Positions 29,165 to 37,717 of a stretch of 64,000 bases of DNA are shown piece by piece. The stretch lies in the NCBI GenBank assembly GCA_008081045.1, contig VMDC01000010.1, forward strand, positions 27,589 to 91,588. The letters are read 5' to 3'. Under the pieces are notes generated by a model. That model was not told the DNA's origin. It saw nothing but the letters and a program-made list of their open reading frames with translations, and made no database searches. This stretch comes from Gammaproteobacteria bacterium. Lineage in GTDB: Bacteria > Pseudomonadota > Gammaproteobacteria > Pseudomonadales > Pseudohongiellaceae. Made by a program: the position numbers and the translations under genes. The first letter of the stretch is position 1. The number at the start of each line of letters is the position of its first letter.

Positions 29165-32086
29165 CTAGATCGATTCGAAGGCCTCGGCGACTATTCCCGG
29201 CGTGAGAATTTGAGGCAGGATAACGGGCTCTCTGTCTTTTTGTCCCGGATACAACACATACAGCGGCACAGACGGCCGGTTGAAATGCTCCAGAACAGCA
29301 GTGATTTCCGGATCTTCGTTAGTCCAGTCACCCTTCATATAGGTAATGCCCCGATCAGCCATCACTGCTTTGACTCGCTCTGTACCAAGCGTGGTCTGCT
29401 CATTAGCCAGGCAGGTGATGCACCAGGCTGCAGTCATGTTGACGAAAACCGGTTTGCCGGCGGACTGAAGCTCTTCCAGACGCTGAGCGCTGAACACCTC
29501 ATACTCCTGCGACGCACCTTCTTCATTTGCTGCGGCATCTGAAGTCGCCGGCACGGATTGCAGAAACGGCGTCTGCGCCAGATAAATCGCCAGAACCAGA
29601 GCAGCCAGGCTCGTCCCGTAATTCAGCGTGCGCAGGAATGGCCCCATCGTGAAGCGGCGCTGGTAGAGCCAGGCGGCAAACGCCATCACCACGCACATGC
29701 CCAACACCAGCGACATCCCCATCACTCCCACCTGATTACCGAGCACCCAGAGAAAAAACAGCGCCGAGGCATACAGCGGAAAGGCCATAAACTGCTTGAA
29801 TGTCTCCATCCACGGTCCGGGTTTGGGTAAAAATCGAAACAGCGCGGGTGAGTAACTCAGCAACAGAATAGGAAAAGCCATACCCACTCCCAGCGAGACA
29901 AATACCGCCATGGCCACCAGCCAGGATTGCGCCAGCGCAAAACCGATCGCTGGCCCCATAAAAGGTGCCGTGCACGGCGTTGCGACGGTAGTGGCCAGCA
30001 CACCGGTAAAGAACGAACCCTGATAGCCGCCCCGGGCGGTGAGAGAGCTGCCGGCTCCCATCAGGCTGGTCCCTATTTCAAAGACGCCTGACAGACTCAG
30101 GCCCATCAGGAAAAACAGATAAACAATGAACGCCAGGAACCAGGGTTGCTGAAACTGGAATGCCCAGCCCACAGCCTCCCCTCCCGCCCTGAGAGCAATC
30201 AGCACCGACGCCAGAGTGACGAATGCCACTACCACACCGAGCGTATAGAACACGCCGTCCATACGTTGCTTCTGACTGGATTCACCCACATTCTTGGCGA
30301 AGCTCATCGCCTTGATGGACAGCACCGGAAAGACGCAGGGCATCAGATTGAGAATCAGGCCTCCAAGGAAGGCGAACCCCATAAACATGAGTAACCCGGA
30401 ACTTCCGCCTGCGTCAGACCCGCTCTCTGCAGACGCAGCGAATGGCATGATGGTCATGGTGCTGGCATCAGCCGCCGGATTGACGAAATCAAAGGCCACG
30501 CGTTCCCCGGATTCATTTTCCAGCACCAGCACTCCGAACACTTCTGACAAATCCTGCAGCATGCGCCGGGGTTGCTGGTGCGTAATCTGCAACAAATTGG
30601 CCTGCATAGACACATCACGAAGAGGTCCGGGCTTGATTATCCGGCGCTGATCCGGGAAAAAGTAGGCATCGGAATATCGGTCGAACAGTGCGTCAGAGGA
30701 TTCAAAGCCAAGGCTCACCCGTTCACCGGCCACGGCAATAATCGAGCGAATGTCGTGGTCAGCTTCGGGCAGCTGTGCGCGCGCGTCGGCGAACAGAGAT
30801 TGGGTTTCAGCATCGAGCTCGGCGACTTCGCCGACGGGCAGTTTGATACTCAGCCTCTGCTCACCGGGTATGCAAATCTGATCGCACACATTCCAATAAG
30901 CCAGCGCGCTCAATTCCACCTGGTCTGCGCTGAAATCTGTCGGCAGGGTGACGGCAACAGGAAGGACGACTTCCTGCTCATAACCAAAGTTCACCAGGTC
31001 CGTCTCATAAAACGGCAGCCAGTGCGGGGCCGGCCACTTAAGCTCGCCAATCTGGGTGCCTTCCGGAGCCTGCCATTCCGTCAGGGTAGTAGGCTCCCCG
31101 CTGTCACCCCCCATTTTCCAGTAGGTGTGCCAGTGCTCAGCCGGGTCGAGCCGGAGCGCCAGCCAGGTGGTTTCACCCGGCACAATGTTGGTGGTCTCGG
31201 ACAGTAATTCGACTTCAATACTGTGATCCCAGGCCGCAGCACTGCGCGTTGCGGTGAGTTCAAAAGCACGCAGTTCACCATTGTCGTCTCTGACCGAGAG
31301 CAGACCTTCCAGCTCGTTACGCGCGTCATCGTACCGGCGGTGCTGTTCAGTTGATATCTGGACTCTGCCACCGTCCAGCATGACCTCTCGATAGGGCGCG
31401 TAACGCATGATGCGACGCTCCGTCGGAAAAAACCACGCCTCATCAATGTCGGTAAACAGCGCTTCCTCGCCGGCGATCATGACATTGACTTTGCCGTCAT
31501 GATCATTGAATTCAGCGACCAGTTCGTGCTGACCCTCAGGAGTCGGAAGCAGACTGCGGGTCTCGGCAAACGCCCCCACCCAGCGGGGATCTGCTTCGAG
31601 GGTGGAGCTGACCGGAAGCGAAATGGCAAAGTCTGCTTCACCCGGAATACAGATTTCATCGCACACCTGCCACTCGATGCGCGTGCTCGCCTGAAACACC
31701 TCCGCATCAAAGTCCTCAGGCACCGTCAGCGCCATCGGCAGGAAGACCTCGCGCTCGTAGGTAAAGGTCACCAGATCACTGCCAAGAAAGGGGGTCCATT
31801 CGGGAATCGGCCACTGGATCTGCCCCACTGCCGCGCCGGCCGGCAGCTGCCAGTCAACCGCGCGCGTCGCTTCACCACTGTCACCGCCAAATTTCCAGTA
31901 GGTATGCCAGTGTTCAATCGGGTCAAGGCGGATTGCCAGCCAGGTAGTCTGGCCGGGCACGACATTTACGGTCTCCGAGACCAGCTCAACCTCGATCTGA
32001 TCAGTTTGATGCACCTGCGCACCGACAGTCATCGCGAAAAAAGAAAACGCGATGAAAATCAATAGCTTGGTCTTATTAAGGGCCAT
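29165..32086 (-). CDS. dsbD: DsbD/ScsB-type thiol:disulfide interchange protein with duplicated N-terminal domain
   Basis: Carries reducing power from cytoplasmic thioredoxin across the inner membrane to periplasmic partners such as DsbC. From the ATG at 32086 (AGGAT upstream) the product has 973 residues: signal peptide, two tandem sensor domains each with EHWHTYWK.GGDSGE and VCD.ICIPGE, a membrane domain with the redox cysteines of NLMPCVFPVLS and TVATPCTAPFMGP, and a thioredoxin-like end with WCITC. The two N-terminal copies are offset by exactly 259 residues with no gap over the first 120 positions, so this is an intragenic duplication. Usual DsbD is about 570-700 residues. Partner DsbC is at 37 kb. 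Confidence 0.92.
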   Translation of the reverse strand: MALNKTKLLIFIAFSFFAMTVGAQVHQTDQIEVELVSETVNVVPGQTTWLAIRLDPIEHWHTYWKFGGDSGEATRAVDWQLPAGAAVGQIQWPIPEWTPFLGSDLVTFTYEREVFLPMALTVPEDFDAEVFQASTRIEWQVCDEICIPGEADFAISLPVSSTLEADPRWVGAFAETRSLLPTPEGQHELVAEFNDHDGKVNVMIAGEEALFTDIDEAWFFPTERRIMRYAPYREVMLDGGRVQISTEQHRRYDDARNELEGLLSVRDDNGELRAFELTATRSAAAWDHSIEVELLSETTNIVPGETTWLALRLDPAEHWHTYWKMGGDSGEPTTLTEWQAPEGTQIGELKWPAPHWLPFYETDLVNFGYEQEVVLPVAVTLPTDFSADQVELSALAYWNVCDQICIPGEQRLSIKLPVGEVAELDAETQSLFADARAQLPEADHDIRSIIAVAGERVSLGFESSDALFDRYSDAYFFPDQRRIIKPGPLRDVSMQANLLQITHQQPRRMLQDLSEVFGVLVLENESGERVAFDFVNPAADASTMTIMPFAASAESGSDAGGSSGLLMFMGFAFLGGLILNLMPCVFPVLSIKAMSFAKNVGESSQKQRMDGVFYTLGVVVAFVTLASVLIALRAGGEAVGWAFQFQQPWFLAFIVYLFFLMGLSLSGVFEIGTSLMGAGSSLTARGGYQGSFFTGVLATTVATPCTAPFMGPAIGFALAQSWLVAMAVFVSLGVGMAFPILLLSYSPALFRFLPKPGPWMETFKQFMAFPLYASALFFLWVLGNQVGVMGMSLVLGMCVVMAFAAWLYQRRFTMGPFLRTLNYGTSLAALVLAIYLAQTPFLQSVPATSDAAANEEGASQEYEVFSAQRLEELQSAGKPVFVNMTAAWCITCLANEQTTLGTERVKAVMADRGITYMKGDWTNEDPEITAVLEHFNRPSVPLYVLYPGQKDREPVILPQILTPGIVAEAFESI

Positions 32087-32311
32087 AAATAAATCCTGCA
32101 ACCGGGTGATCGTTACCAACCCGCGAAACCTGCTATACCGGGACTAAAGGTATCAAAATCGCCCTCTGCTGTCATGAAACTGTCGGCCGGCCGGCACGAA
32201 CCCTTCAGTGCGCCGAGCGTTCGGGGGCCTGAGCCAACCGCCCTCCTGAACCAGAAAAACGCGGTTTCCCCGAAAACGGACTTGCTCCGGCCTGAATATT
32301 ATCGCGCCCGG

Positions 32312-34045
32312 TTACTGGCTCCGGAGTATTTTTTCCACCATCAACTGCAAATTCAGCGAATCACGGAAGTCGTTCACTGCCAGACGGAAGACCAGTTCTA
32401 TCCGGGTAGCGTGTGAGTCAGGCCAACTCTCCTCAGGCACGTTAAACGCGATGGCGTCGACTATTTTGCCCGGTTCAGATTCAGGGCTCAGCACCATTTT
32501 CAGATGCTTGCCACCAAGTCTGCGCTGTTCACGCAGCAGGAACCTGCCATCAAACTGAGGCTCAGGGAACGCCTGCCCCCAGGGCCCTGCAGCCTGAATC
32601 AGCTGTGCAGTTTCCAACGTAAGATGGTTTGCCGCAACCTCGCCATCGCTTTCGATGACGGCCTGTAGTTGCGACCGGCTCAGCCGAAGACGCGCCTCGG
32701 CCTCAAACGCCGATTGAAAAGCGGTCAGCTTATCAGGCGCGAGGCTGAGACCGGCGGCCATGGCATGCCCCCCGAATTTAGTGATAAGCCCCGGATTTTT
32801 GGTAGCCACAGCATCAAGCGCATCGCGGATATGAAAGCCGCCGATAGACCGAGCAGAGCCTTTGAGCTCTTCGCCTCCCTCCACCGCTGCAAAGGCGATC
32901 ACCGGGCGATGATATTTTTCCTTTATACGTGACGCGAGGATACCCACCACACCCTGATGCCAACGTTGATCAAACAGGCAGAAGGAGTTGGGCAGGTCTG
33001 ACTCATTGAATTCAAATTCCGCCAGAGATTCGAACGCCTGCTGACGCATGTCTGCCTCGATCTGCTTTCGGTCCTGATTCATCGAATCCAGTTGAAGGGC
33101 CAGTTGGTAAGCCGTATCGGCATGCTCAGACAGCAGGCATTCAATCCCAGTGGTCATGTCATCCAGTCGGCCTGCCGCATTAAGCCGGGGACCGACGCCA
33201 AAAGCCAGGTCTGAAGCCGTGAGCGCGGCCGTGTTCTTACCGGCCACCTGCAACAGTGCCTGTATGCCGGGCCTTGCTTTACCGGCTCTTATCCTGCGCA
33301 GCCCCTCCGCAACCAGGATCCTGTTGTTGTGGTCGAGCGGGACAACGTCGGCGATCGTGCCCAATGCGATCAGATCGAGCAGCGCAGCCATATTAGGTTC
33401 GGACAGACCGCTTTCAAATCGCCCCAGTTCACGCAGCCTGCCCCTGAGCGCCAGCATCACATAAAAAATCACGCCCACACCGGCTATGGCCTTGCTCTTG
33501 AAAGAACAGCCTTGCTGGTTAGGATTCACAATGGCGTCAGCCTCCGGCAGTGTCTCCGGGGCAAGGTGATGATCAGTGATCAGAACCTGACTGCCGATCT
33601 GTTTGGCCGCCTGAACACCGGCAACGCTCGAAATCCCGTTATCAACGGTAATAATTAGATCCGGCTCTTTTCCCTTGGCTAACTCATCAACAATTTTAGG
33701 CGTCAAGCCGTAGCCGAAGTCGAAGCGATTGGGAACAATGTAGTCAACGTGACGAAAACCGAAGTCTTGCAAGGCAGACATTGCGAGCGCACAGCTGGTT
33801 GCACCGTCTGCATCGAAGTCAGAGACGATCAGAACGCGGCGCTGATGATCCAGCGCCGCAACCAGCAAGTCGACGGCAGTGGCCATCCCGAGCAATTCAT
33901 GGGGAGGAATAAGGTTCGCCAGTGCCAGATCCAGTTCCTGCTCACCGGTAAGGCCGCGCTGGCGGTAGACCCGCTGTAGCAGGGGGTGCATCGCTGCAGG
34001 AAGTGTTAAGCCTTCATCGGGGCTTCGCCGCTGCAGTCGAGTCAT
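32312..34045 (-). CDS. recJ: Single-stranded-DNA-specific exonuclease RecJ
   Basis: 5'-3' ssDNA exonuclease for recombination and mismatch repair. The 577-residue product has the DHH-family motifs: VSDFDADGATS (residues 74-84), VLITDHHLAPE, DLIALGTIADVVPL, and the DHHA1 end with FGGHAMAAGLSL. The start is eight bases past the thrC stop, so it sits in the dsbC-hom-thrC-recJ series common in pseudomonads and relatives. Confidence 0.97.
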   Translation of the reverse strand: MTRLQRRSPDEGLTLPAAMHPLLQRVYRQRGLTGEQELDLALANLIPPHELLGMATAVDLLVAALDHQRRVLIVSDFDADGATSCALAMSALQDFGFRHVDYIVPNRFDFGYGLTPKIVDELAKGKEPDLIITVDNGISSVAGVQAAKQIGSQVLITDHHLAPETLPEADAIVNPNQQGCSFKSKAIAGVGVIFYVMLALRGRLRELGRFESGLSEPNMAALLDLIALGTIADVVPLDHNNRILVAEGLRRIRAGKARPGIQALLQVAGKNTAALTASDLAFGVGPRLNAAGRLDDMTTGIECLLSEHADTAYQLALQLDSMNQDRKQIEADMRQQAFESLAEFEFNESDLPNSFCLFDQRWHQGVVGILASRIKEKYHRPVIAFAAVEGGEELKGSARSIGGFHIRDALDAVATKNPGLITKFGGHAMAAGLSLAPDKLTAFQSAFEAEARLRLSRSQLQAVIESDGEVAANHLTLETAQLIQAAGPWGQAFPEPQFDGRFLLREQRRLGGKHLKMVLSPESEPGKIVDAIAFNVPEESWPDSHATRIELVFRLAVNDFRDSLNLQLMVEKILRSQ

Positions 34046-34053
34046 GGTCGCAT

Positions 34054-35454
34054 TTAAGCTTGCTGGCCGAGAGCTGCGCTGATGAAGGCGGAGACTTCTC
34101 CAAGATCATTGGCGATCACCGAATATCGCTCTTCCCGCTCGAATAAATCGGCAAGGTGAGCAGGCAGTTCCGGCAGATCCAGCCCGGCAACTGTAATGGC
34201 TTCGCTGAATTTTGCGGGATGCGCTGTCGCCAGGGTAATCATGGGCACCTGCGGGTTTTTCCGGGTCAAACGCCCGGATTCCACGCCGATTGCTGTGTGG
34301 GGATCAAGCAGCTTGCCCAGCTCAGCAGCAGTTTCGCTGATGACCCGACAGGTGGTCTCATCGCTGACGCTGGCACTGTCAAAAATTGCTTGCACAGCTT
34401 GCCACTGTGATTCACTGACGCTGAGGCGTTCCTTACTGGATCTGAGCATAAAGTCAGTCAGCTGCGCCGAATCGCGCCCGAACAGATCAAACAGGTAGCG
34501 CTCAAAATTACTGGAAACCAGAATGTCCATACTGGGCGAATAGGTCTTGCTCAACTGCGTCTTGCTGTAGTCGTTGTTGCTGATGAAGCGATGCAGAATA
34601 TCGTTCTGATTGGTCGCGACCACAAGCTGGTCGACCGGCAATCCCATCTGCTTGGCCAGATAGCCAGCATAAATATCTCCGAAATTTCCGGTTGGCACTG
34701 AAAAAGACACTTGCCTGTCCGGGGCGCCCAGCCTGAGCGCCGCCGCAAAATAGTAGACGATCTGCATAAGGATGCGCGCCCAGTTGATCGAGTTAACGGC
34801 AACAAGCTGACGATCATCAGGCAGGAAAGACTGATCAGAAAAGGCGGCTTTGACTATGCGCTGGCAGTCATCAAAATTTCCTTCGACTGCAAGATTGAAG
34901 ACATTGTCACCCGGCACCGTTGTCATCTGGCGGCGCTGCACCTCTGAGACCCTCTGATGCGGATGGAGTATGAAGATATCCACCCGATCTGAGTGGCGGC
35001 ATCCCTCCAGCGCTGCCGAGCCAGTATCTCCGGAAGTCGCTCCCAGAATCACCACCCGCTGATCGTTCTTCGCCAGGACATGATCCAGCAATCGCCCGAG
35101 CACCTGTAACGCAAAGTCTTTGAATGCGAGAGTCGGGCCATGGTAGAGCTCGAGCAGATATTCATGCTCCCTGAGCGCGGTAAGCGGTGCCACCTCCGGA
35201 TGACCGAAATCTGCATAGCTTTCGGTAATAATCCGTTTCAGTTCATCGGGTTGCAGTGCATCTCCGATAAAAGGCGAAATGACTGCGAGGGCCAGATCAA
35301 CGTAGCTGAGATCACGCCACGAGGCAATCTGCTCCGGACTGAAAGACGGCAACTCTACGGGGACATACAACCCGCCATCCGGGGCCAGACCGGTCAGCAA
35401 TACCTGCTCGAATGACTGCGGCGTCCCGCCGCCACGGGTACTGATATATTTCAC
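34054..35454 (-). CDS. thrC: Threonine synthase
   Basis: PLP enzyme that converts O-phosphohomoserine to threonine. The 466-residue product begins MKYISTRGGGTPQSFEQVL and has the PLP lysine at 112 in TLAFKDFALQ, the phosphate/PLP loop GATSGDTGSAAL and the SVPTGNFGDIYAGYLAK block. It starts with GTG, 12 bases past the hom stop, and is co-transcribed with hom. Confidence 0.97.
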   Translation of the reverse strand: MKYISTRGGGTPQSFEQVLLTGLAPDGGLYVPVELPSFSPEQIASWRDLSYVDLALAVISPFIGDALQPDELKRIITESYADFGHPEVAPLTALREHEYLLELYHGPTLAFKDFALQVLGRLLDHVLAKNDQRVVILGATSGDTGSAALEGCRHSDRVDIFILHPHQRVSEVQRRQMTTVPGDNVFNLAVEGNFDDCQRIVKAAFSDQSFLPDDRQLVAVNSINWARILMQIVYYFAAALRLGAPDRQVSFSVPTGNFGDIYAGYLAKQMGLPVDQLVVATNQNDILHRFISNNDYSKTQLSKTYSPSMDILVSSNFERYLFDLFGRDSAQLTDFMLRSSKERLSVSESQWQAVQAIFDSASVSDETTCRVISETAAELGKLLDPHTAIGVESGRLTRKNPQVPMITLATAHPAKFSEAITVAGLDLPELPAHLADLFEREERYSVIANDLGEVSAFISAALGQQA

Positions 35455-35466
35455 TGTATTGGCAGG

Positions 35467-36792
35467 CTACGCCTCTCCATCAAAGGGCTCAATCCGAATA
35501 CGGGTGACCGGGCCGGTGACCTCATCGAGTTCAGCGAGCGCGTCCAGCGCGGCATTAAGTTCCCGTTCCCGGACTACTTGCGTAAGAATGACAACAGGCA
35601 CGGTTTCAGAATTTTCAGATTCTTTCTGGATAATGGCCTCGATACTGATGCCCCGCTGCTGCAGAACAGCAGAGAGTTTTGCCATGACCCCAAGCTTATC
35701 CAGCACCGGGATCTTCAGATAATATCCGACCTCAATCTGCTCGATCGGCAGTACTTCCAGCGAAGAGCCTGTTTGAGTAGAGCCCAGCGCCGGGCGAACC
35801 GGAGCTTTGACACCAGCCAGCCGATCTCTGGCCAGGTCGATCAGATCAGCGACCACCGCTGATGCTGTTGCTTCAGCTCCGGCGCCGGGACCGCTGTACA
35901 GAGTCGACCCGACGAAATTTCCCTGCACCATTACTGCATTACCGACGCCGTTGACGTTTGCCAGCAGGCGAGTGTTGGAAACCAGCGTAGGATGCACGCG
36001 CATCTCCACTCCACGGACCGTTTTTCTGGCAATACCGAGGTGCTTGATCCGATATCCCAACTCTTCGGCGAAGCTGATGTCAGCCGGAGAGATGCCGCTA
36101 ATGCCCTCGGTGTAGGTCTTCTCAAACTGTAGCGGTATGCCAAACGCGATAGCGCTCATGATCGTCAGCTTGTGGGCCGCATCAATGCCTTCCACATCAA
36201 ACGTCGGATCTGCTTCGGCGTAACCCAGCTCCTGCGCTTGCTGAAGCACTTCCGAAAACTCACTCTGCTTGGCCGACATTTCGGAAAGAATAAAATTTCC
36301 TGTTCCGTTGATGATGCCTGCGAGCCACTCGATGTCGTTGGCTGCCAACCCCTCCCGCAAGGCCTTGATTATCGGAATTCCACCAGCTACGGCGCTTTCA
36401 AACGCGAGCGTGACTTCATTGGCGCTCGCCAGCGCAAACAGCTCGTTGCCTCTTTCCGCAATCAGGGCTTTGTTCGCTGTCACCACATGTTTGCCGTTGC
36501 TCAGGGCGCGCTGGATCACCTCGAAGGCCACATCGTAGCCACCCATGGTTTCCACCACCACATCAACCTCAGGATCTGACGTGATTGCGAGCGGATCTGA
36601 ACCGGTATGGGCAACCTGCCCGCACAGATCCGGCTTCGGTGTCCGTGTCGCAACATGAGTAACCCGGATTGGACAACCTGCACGCGCCGTGATCAATGCC
36701 GCATTCTGCTCCAGCAACGCCAGCGTACCACCACCGACAGTGCCAAGACCGCAGATGCCGACTGACAAAATTTCTGTATTTTTTCCGCTCAA
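35467..36792 (-). CDS. hom: Homoserine dehydrogenase
   Basis: Reduces aspartate semialdehyde to homoserine using NAD(P)H. The 441-residue product has the nucleotide-binding VGICGLGTVGGGTL, ANKALIAERGNELF, the catalytic region AGGIPIIKAL and a C-terminal ACT domain (VGYYLKIPVLDKLGVMAKL), which usually binds threonine. The only reasonable start in front of the Rossmann strand is the TTG at 36792. Together with thrC and lysC it covers threonine synthesis except the semialdehyde step. Confidence 0.97.
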   Translation of the reverse strand: MSGKNTEILSVGICGLGTVGGGTLALLEQNAALITARAGCPIRVTHVATRTPKPDLCGQVAHTGSDPLAITSDPEVDVVVETMGGYDVAFEVIQRALSNGKHVVTANKALIAERGNELFALASANEVTLAFESAVAGGIPIIKALREGLAANDIEWLAGIINGTGNFILSEMSAKQSEFSEVLQQAQELGYAEADPTFDVEGIDAAHKLTIMSAIAFGIPLQFEKTYTEGISGISPADISFAEELGYRIKHLGIARKTVRGVEMRVHPTLVSNTRLLANVNGVGNAVMVQGNFVGSTLYSGPGAGAEATASAVVADLIDLARDRLAGVKAPVRPALGSTQTGSSLEVLPIEQIEVGYYLKIPVLDKLGVMAKLSAVLQQRGISIEAIIQKESENSETVPVVILTQVVRERELNAALDALAELDEVTGPVTRIRIEPFDGEA

Positions 36793-36967
36793 GATAGTGC
36801 TCGTCTATTGTGCTCTTTATCCAGACCACCGCCTCATTTTCAGCAGTTTAAACGGGCAGTCCGGAACGTAATCAGACATTGCTTCCCTGCTCCGAACCGG
36901 GGAATCGATGGCGTCAGCAGCGTGCTTTCAGAACCGGCTCCTGAGCATCTCTCCCGTACAGGCGTGA

Positions 36968-37717
36968 TCAGTTCAGACCGAGCATGGCGGCCAGTCTTTC
37001 GCTGTCCATATACCCGGGGACCAGGCGACCATCAGAAAAGACCAGCGCAGGCGTACCGCTGATACCAAGCTCGTTACCCAGTTGGTAGTGATCCAGAATC
37101 GGCGTGTCGCAGGCGGCTGCCGGCAGCTCTTCTCCCTCCTTGGCGAGGGTCAGGGACTGTTTACGATCATCCGAACACCAGACCGAGATCATCTTGTCGT
37201 AGGAGGTCGATGCCTGCCCGCCGCGGGGGTAAGCCAGGTACCGTACTTCAATACCGTAAGCCAACAGCTCTTCCAGATCACCGTGCAGAGCGCGGCAGTA
37301 GGTACAATCCACGTCGGTAAACACCGTAATGCTTGCCTTCACGGTTTCCGGTGTGAACACGATCATTTCGTCTTCCGGGATGGCAGCAATCTTGTCCAGT
37401 GCGCGCTGCTGCCGCGAACTCGCCGACAGATTGGTGAGCCCACCCGGGCTTGTCGCATACATGTCGCCAGCAAACAGATAATCACCGGAGATATCGCTGT
37501 AGAGCACTTCGCCTGTATTCAGCTCAACCTCAAAAATATTCGGCAGGGCTGTCTGATTCAGGGACACAATCTTCAATTGATTCTGAGAGGCCACTTCGAT
37601 CGCCTGTTCCAGTTTACCGCGCAGAGATTGATCACCCTGTGCCGATACCGGGCTGATCAGAATCAGACTCAACAGCACTCCTACCAGCAACCGAACCTTG
37701 TGGATTGTCATTCGCAT
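36968..37717 (-). CDS. dsbC: Periplasmic disulfide isomerase DsbC
   Basis: Corrects wrong disulfides in the periplasm and is kept reduced by DsbD. The 249-residue product has a signal peptide ending near SPVSAQ, an N-terminal dimerisation domain, and a thioredoxin-like domain with C138-TY-C141 (VDCTYCRALH), a structural Cys pair (VWCSDD and AACDTP) and cis-Pro in SGTPALVF. It lies 175 bp before hom in the order common to Pseudomonas-type genomes. Confidence 0.95.
   Translation of the reverse strand: MRMTIHKVRLLVGVLLSLILISPVSAQGDQSLRGKLEQAIEVASQNQLKIVSLNQTALPNIFEVELNTGEVLYSDISGDYLFAGDMYATSPGGLTNLSASSRQQRALDKIAAIPEDEMIVFTPETVKASITVFTDVDCTYCRALHGDLEELLAYGIEVRYLAYPRGGQASTSYDKMISVWCSDDRKQSLTLAKEGEELPAAACDTPILDHYQLGNELGISGTPALVFSDGRLVPGYMDSERLAAMLGLN

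Follow-up and report, generated by a model that had tools for sequence, protein, structure and literature searches.

In E. coli, electrons pass from thioredoxin to the membrane domain of DsbD, from there to its gamma domain and finally to the N-terminal head nDsbD, and this single head serves DsbC, DsbG and CcmG (PMC7347389). The protein that we describe here shares the three-part logic of nDsbD-tmDsbD-cDsbD, with its DsbD_N, DsbD_TM and thioredoxin families and equivalent motifs for the membrane and gamma cysteines. However, it differs from E. coli DsbD in carrying two heads, and in that these are of the ScsB-like CxxxCIPG kind and not of the GCAxxGxCYPP type. The other close point of reference is ScsB, for which the N-terminal domain of the Proteus mirabilis protein is available as PDB 6c29: the alpha-beta-gamma layout is the same, and each unit here matches the fold of the whole domain with the CxxxC pairs aligned, although at only ~16% identity. 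Here too there are differences, namely two alpha units instead of one, and a locus of the form dsbC-hom-thrC-recJ-dsbD with no adjoining scsC-like gene, rather than an scs cluster. Our literature search, conducted largely without subscription journals, found no paper describing a two-headed DsbD, and the layout looks like a variant of a known family, conserved and specific to its lineage.

The gene lies on the minus strand of the window, by which we mean the whole 64,000-nucleotide stretch of DNA analysed, and belongs to the genome of a marine bacterium of genus g1, in the family that contains Pseudohongiella and OM182. Its protein has the domain order DsbD_N twice, DsbD_TM and Thioredoxin_7, all above the curated Pfam cut-offs. 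Residues are numbered from the methionine at 32086 as residue 1; an in-frame TTG at 32119 is an alternative start that would give 984 residues. The parts of the gene, and the two neighbours that matter most below, are as follows.

29165..32086, minus strand: the whole dsbD gene, 973 residues with its ATG at 32086 (Pfam)
32018..32086, minus strand: predicted N-terminal signal sequence, residues 1-23 (hydrophobic start judged by eye; helix at 2-20 in the model)
31265..31996, minus strand: unit R1, residues 31-274, a DsbD_N-like half (31-159) and a second beta-rich half (160-274)
31649..31663, minus strand: cysteine pair of R1, C142-xxx-C146 (CDEIC-IPG), invariant in 61/61 distinct genus sequences
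31220..31264, minus strand: R1-R2 junction, residues 275-289 (alignment of 61 sequences)
30452..31219, minus strand: unit R2, residues 290-545, a DsbD_N-like half (290-418) and a second half (419-545)
30872..30886, minus strand: cysteine pair of R2, C401-xxx-C405 (CDQIC-IPG), invariant in 61/61 distinct genus sequences
30395..30451, minus strand: Ser/Gly-rich linker to the membrane domain, of varying length among relatives (pLDDT 25-28 in the full-length model)
29573..30394, minus strand: DsbD_TM membrane domain with C584 (LMPCVFP) and C705 (ATPCTAPF) (Pfam, alignment and model)
29168..29500, minus strand: C-terminal thioredoxin-like (gamma) domain with C889-IT-C892 (Pfam Thioredoxin_7; PDB matches to gamma domains of E. 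coli and others)
32312..34045, minus strand: recJ, the upstream neighbour on the same strand, in conserved synteny (identity by reading)
36968..37717, minus strand: dsbC, 249 residues, four genes upstream of dsbD; a candidate client

Unit R1 begins at residue 31 and unit R2 at residue 290, exactly 259 further on, and the two are identical at 113 of 244 aligned residues (46%; BLOSUM62 local alignment), with a score of 611 where the best of 300 shuffles reached 56; Pfam likewise places DsbD_N twice. Their alignment runs without a gap over the first 129 residues or more, and continues into a second half whose similarity is genuine, if weaker, and interrupted by a single 2-residue gap. Each unit has its own CxxxCIPG pair, C142/C146 in R1 and C401/C405 in R2. 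The first-pass annotation, which had described tandem 259-residue copies, gap-free over 120 residues and each with a cysteine pair, as a departure from the single N-terminal domain of usual DsbD, was thus right on all of these points, and the span that it gave (30485-31996) is correct within a few dozen bases: it begins within the last part of unit 2 and closes on the first base of unit 1. Its word for the duplicated part, a 'sensor' domain, was wrong, as the domain passes electrons to clients. Its further idea, that two arms could serve two partners or form a relay, is compatible with these data.

What kind of reductase is this? The DsbD_N, DsbD_TM and thioredoxin-like order is that of the DsbD/ScsB superfamily, and the three redox cysteine pairs of head, membrane and gamma domains are all present, together with one extra head pair. 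Modelled by themselves, the two units give a confident structure (pLDDT 85.9, pTM 0.73) that has 6c29 as by far its best PDB match (Foldseek E 2.2e-11, TM 0.70 by target, 262 columns), and 6c29 is also the only PDB match by sequence profile (E 6.9e-12), with the cysteine pairs aligned to each other. Because the match extends over the whole domain, each 259-residue repeat corresponds to one complete ScsB alpha unit of two beta-rich halves, as seen in 6c29, and not to half of one. The full-length model, at a pTM of 0.45, is too weak to place the domains. On the other hand, the NCBIfam DsbD model PRK00293 scores the protein at 118 bits, short of its cut-off of 330, and there are two heads where E. 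coli-type DsbD has a single alpha head. The protein is therefore nearer to ScsB than to the DsbD of E. coli: the first pass was right to name the DsbD family and the duplication, but the type is ScsB-like. It is nonetheless ScsB-like by structure and not a member of the scs system, as there is no scsC/scsD cluster at the dsbD locus, where the neighbours are recJ, thrC, hom, dsbC, a PP2C-like gene and a permease, the last two lying downstream. The array dsbC-hom-thrC-recJ-dsbD sits on one strand (window 29165-37717), and its order is kept across g1.

Both units are present in every genus relative with an unbroken N-terminus, which answers the earlier suggestion to look for the same architecture in relatives; in the four genus entries with fewer motifs a contig end or a frame break interrupts the sequence, and most genomes of genus g1 give full-length matches. 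The two CxxxC motifs lie 257-259 residues apart in 96 of 96 entries, a figure that counts all loci and in which some are one species fetched twice. A search of named genomes returned ~70 same-clade contigs with the tandem (uncultured Pseudohongiella, OM182 bacterium MED-G28, Pseudomonadales MAGs and others), and two of these, at 98-99% identity, are the isolates AG-899-E05 and AG-916-F08, which we presume from their names to be single-cell genomes. Genus g25 has it as well (L111), with the start cut by a contig end, two DsbD_N matches and cysteine pairs 257 residues apart. Further afield, the two-unit region used as a query against 369 Gammaproteobacteria gave no further full match. A one-unit profile run over 398 Pseudomonadota picked up R1 and R2 in the window's genome and matched 190 other genomes; among the matches listed there was no second two-unit frame outside the window's genome, though remote or independently duplicated heads could escape such a search. 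One long frame in G519 (1011 residues) proved to be one unit plus an upstream open frame. Two genomes of the same genus, G024 and G122, hold seven and six DsbD_N matches respectively, which suggests further expansion of the DsbD_N family there.

In the sister genera of the family, the orthologous frames are 712-817 residues long and contain one unit (L112-L138). They share the domain order and an intact CxxxC pair, but have one alpha unit only. In g26-g28 the one-unit gene is likewise preceded by recJ, and the one- and two-unit genes are therefore positional orthologues. The single units of g26-g28 (L112-L122, L124, L129, L140) have CLLG or CLI after the second cysteine, not CIPG; an empty CIPG search had hinted at loss of the pair in these genera, but it is present as CDEICLLG or CDLICLI.

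Within the genus, 61 distinct sequences show C142, C146, C401, C405, C584, C705, C889 and C892 to be invariant, as is C798 of the membrane domain. Selection on both units is purifying, with dN/dS of 0.05-0.20 in all four half-units (from the two near-species pairs computable throughout). The junction stretch 270-292 shows zero length variation in the 61 sequences, whereas the linkers vary by 8 residues towards the membrane domain and by 7 towards the thioredoxin domain. At 62 positions, active site included, the two heads are alike at >=95%, and at 11 others each head is fixed for a different residue: F66/M325, S103/T362, T107/N366, Q140/N399 (two residues before the first cysteine), F153/L412, M203/G460, Y229/P486, A230/G487, R241/L498, T246/H503 and H249/P506. 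The second half of R1 is the fastest-evolving half-unit (column conservation 0.69).

How old is the duplication? A tree of units recovers R1 as one clade and R2 as another (95/97 and 100/100), and we therefore conclude that there was one old duplication, kept without homogenisation. R1 is nearer to the single units in its first half (0.57, against 0.52 for R2), and R2 in its second (0.44, against 0.34 for R1). The whole-unit tree places the g26-g28 single units next to R2, which would imply that the duplication preceded their split and that g26-g28 lost a unit; the tree of first halves favours neither alternative (AU p values of 0.35 and 0.45), and a quick tree of the second halves groups R2 with the single units. 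Such split affinities would be expected if ancestral contacts were kept at the outer ends of the tandem, or if g26-g28 arose by tandem collapse, and the origin would lie either in the ancestor of g1 and g25 or in an earlier event with later collapse. Either way, the domain duplication is real, old, conserved and lineage-restricted, in a protein closest to ScsB. As both copies are kept throughout the genus, the second very probably has a job of its own, whose nature we infer.

All the cysteines of the E. coli electron path are present in the two-headed protein, and by homology we posit that it moves electrons from thioredoxin to periplasmic clients in the same way. Cytoplasmic thioredoxin would reduce C584/C705 of the membrane domain, which would pass electrons to C889/C892 of the gamma domain, and this in turn to the CxxxC pair of either head. 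The two heads could form a single arm, fixed in length and flexibly tethered, each head reducing the thioredoxin-fold clients that it prefers, among them DsbC, CcmG and probably peroxiredoxins of the periplasm. We put the probability of this reading, an ScsB-type reductase with a tandem-duplicated alpha unit in which one conduit feeds two redox-active heads with different clients, at roughly one half, and favour it because both cysteine pairs are invariant and fixed differences separate the heads. That both heads are active, and that clients are divided between them, would fit the same pattern, although the heads may have diverged for structural reasons.

Candidate clients are at hand in the window's genome: DsbC, CcmG (whose gene adjoins ccmF and ccmH), a ResA/TlpA-like protein (L147) and two peroxiredoxin-like proteins (L149, L151). 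Co-location with dsbC is also seen, in general, around loci well upstream of recJ, and is no proof of contact. The peroxiredoxin-like frames, at about G000:C9:33120-33515 (L149) and about G000:C4:118615-119058 (L151), each begin with a signal-like sequence and carry a single TGA in frame at the active site (GGUTMQC and DWUPYC); the genome has a tRNA-Sec match of 66.6 bits (L160); judging by these sequences, both are likely to be exported selenoproteins. The ScsB of Caulobacter, reportedly, feeds a periplasmic peroxiredoxin.

A serial relay, in which gamma reduces only the membrane-proximal R2, R2 reduces R1, and R1 reduces clients of the outer periplasm, is the best placed of the alternatives, though we think it rather unlikely. 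It would fit the half-unit affinities, with R2 keeping its membrane-side context in the second half and R1 the outer side in the first, and a junction of fixed length is what a fixed head-to-head geometry would need. Against it, the Ig-type head of E. coli exchanges with thioredoxin-fold partners, from a site behind a cap loop (PMC7347389), and the two subdomains per unit here probably set the cysteine pairs far apart. Could one head pass electrons to another at all? We know of no precedent for exchange between Ig-type heads.

Perhaps, instead, the heads are equivalent, and the second simply adds flux or allows simultaneous clients without any specialisation. The 62 positions that are fixed and identical in both, active site included, are consistent with such redundancy, but the tree keeps R1 and R2 apart and gives no hint of homogenisation, and the 11 fixed differences speak against interchangeable copies; we regard it as unlikely. 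Less probable still is a role in reach or scaffolding, where the extra unit would lengthen or steady the arm and its cysteine pair would be unneeded for electron flow: the rigid junction and the fast evolution of the second half of R1 suit this, yet C142, C146 and the CxxxCIPG motif are kept in 61 of 61 sequences, which is unexpected for a pure spacer. An assembly or annotation artefact, which the first-pass annotation would have recognised by a single copy on re-sequencing, can be dismissed, since the copies, at only 53% DNA identity over aligned codons, are too different for a collapsed or doubled assembly, and the identical layout recurs in dozens of independent assemblies, including the presumed single-cell genomes that are ~98-99% identical (L034, L093).

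Many genomes of the family (L141-L145, L158) also encode a lone DsbD head of the E. coli type, ~160-230 residues long with the motif QGCAxxGxCYPP and apparently exported, between fabB-like and aroQ-accB-accC genes and without a membrane or thioredoxin domain. Its seeming absence from the window's genome is not real evidence, as the contig breaks off within aroQ, the adjacent gene. This free head would need an outside reductant, for which the two-headed protein is a candidate. We would therefore entertain, more tentatively than the reading with two active heads, a wider picture in which the conduit of the two-headed reductase feeds specialised heads or a relay, while the classical DsbD of the lineage has been reduced to a free soluble head that needs its electrons.

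To return to the two active heads, the interest of such a protein lies in a standing question, that of how one DsbD head serves several clients while avoiding the oxidising pathway, and how these are kept apart. Twin heads that have diverged and are conserved would represent the functions of one head split in two, in a form tractable by point mutation. Furthermore, orthologues with one head in some genera and two in their sisters, at one locus, provide a clean evolutionary contrast.
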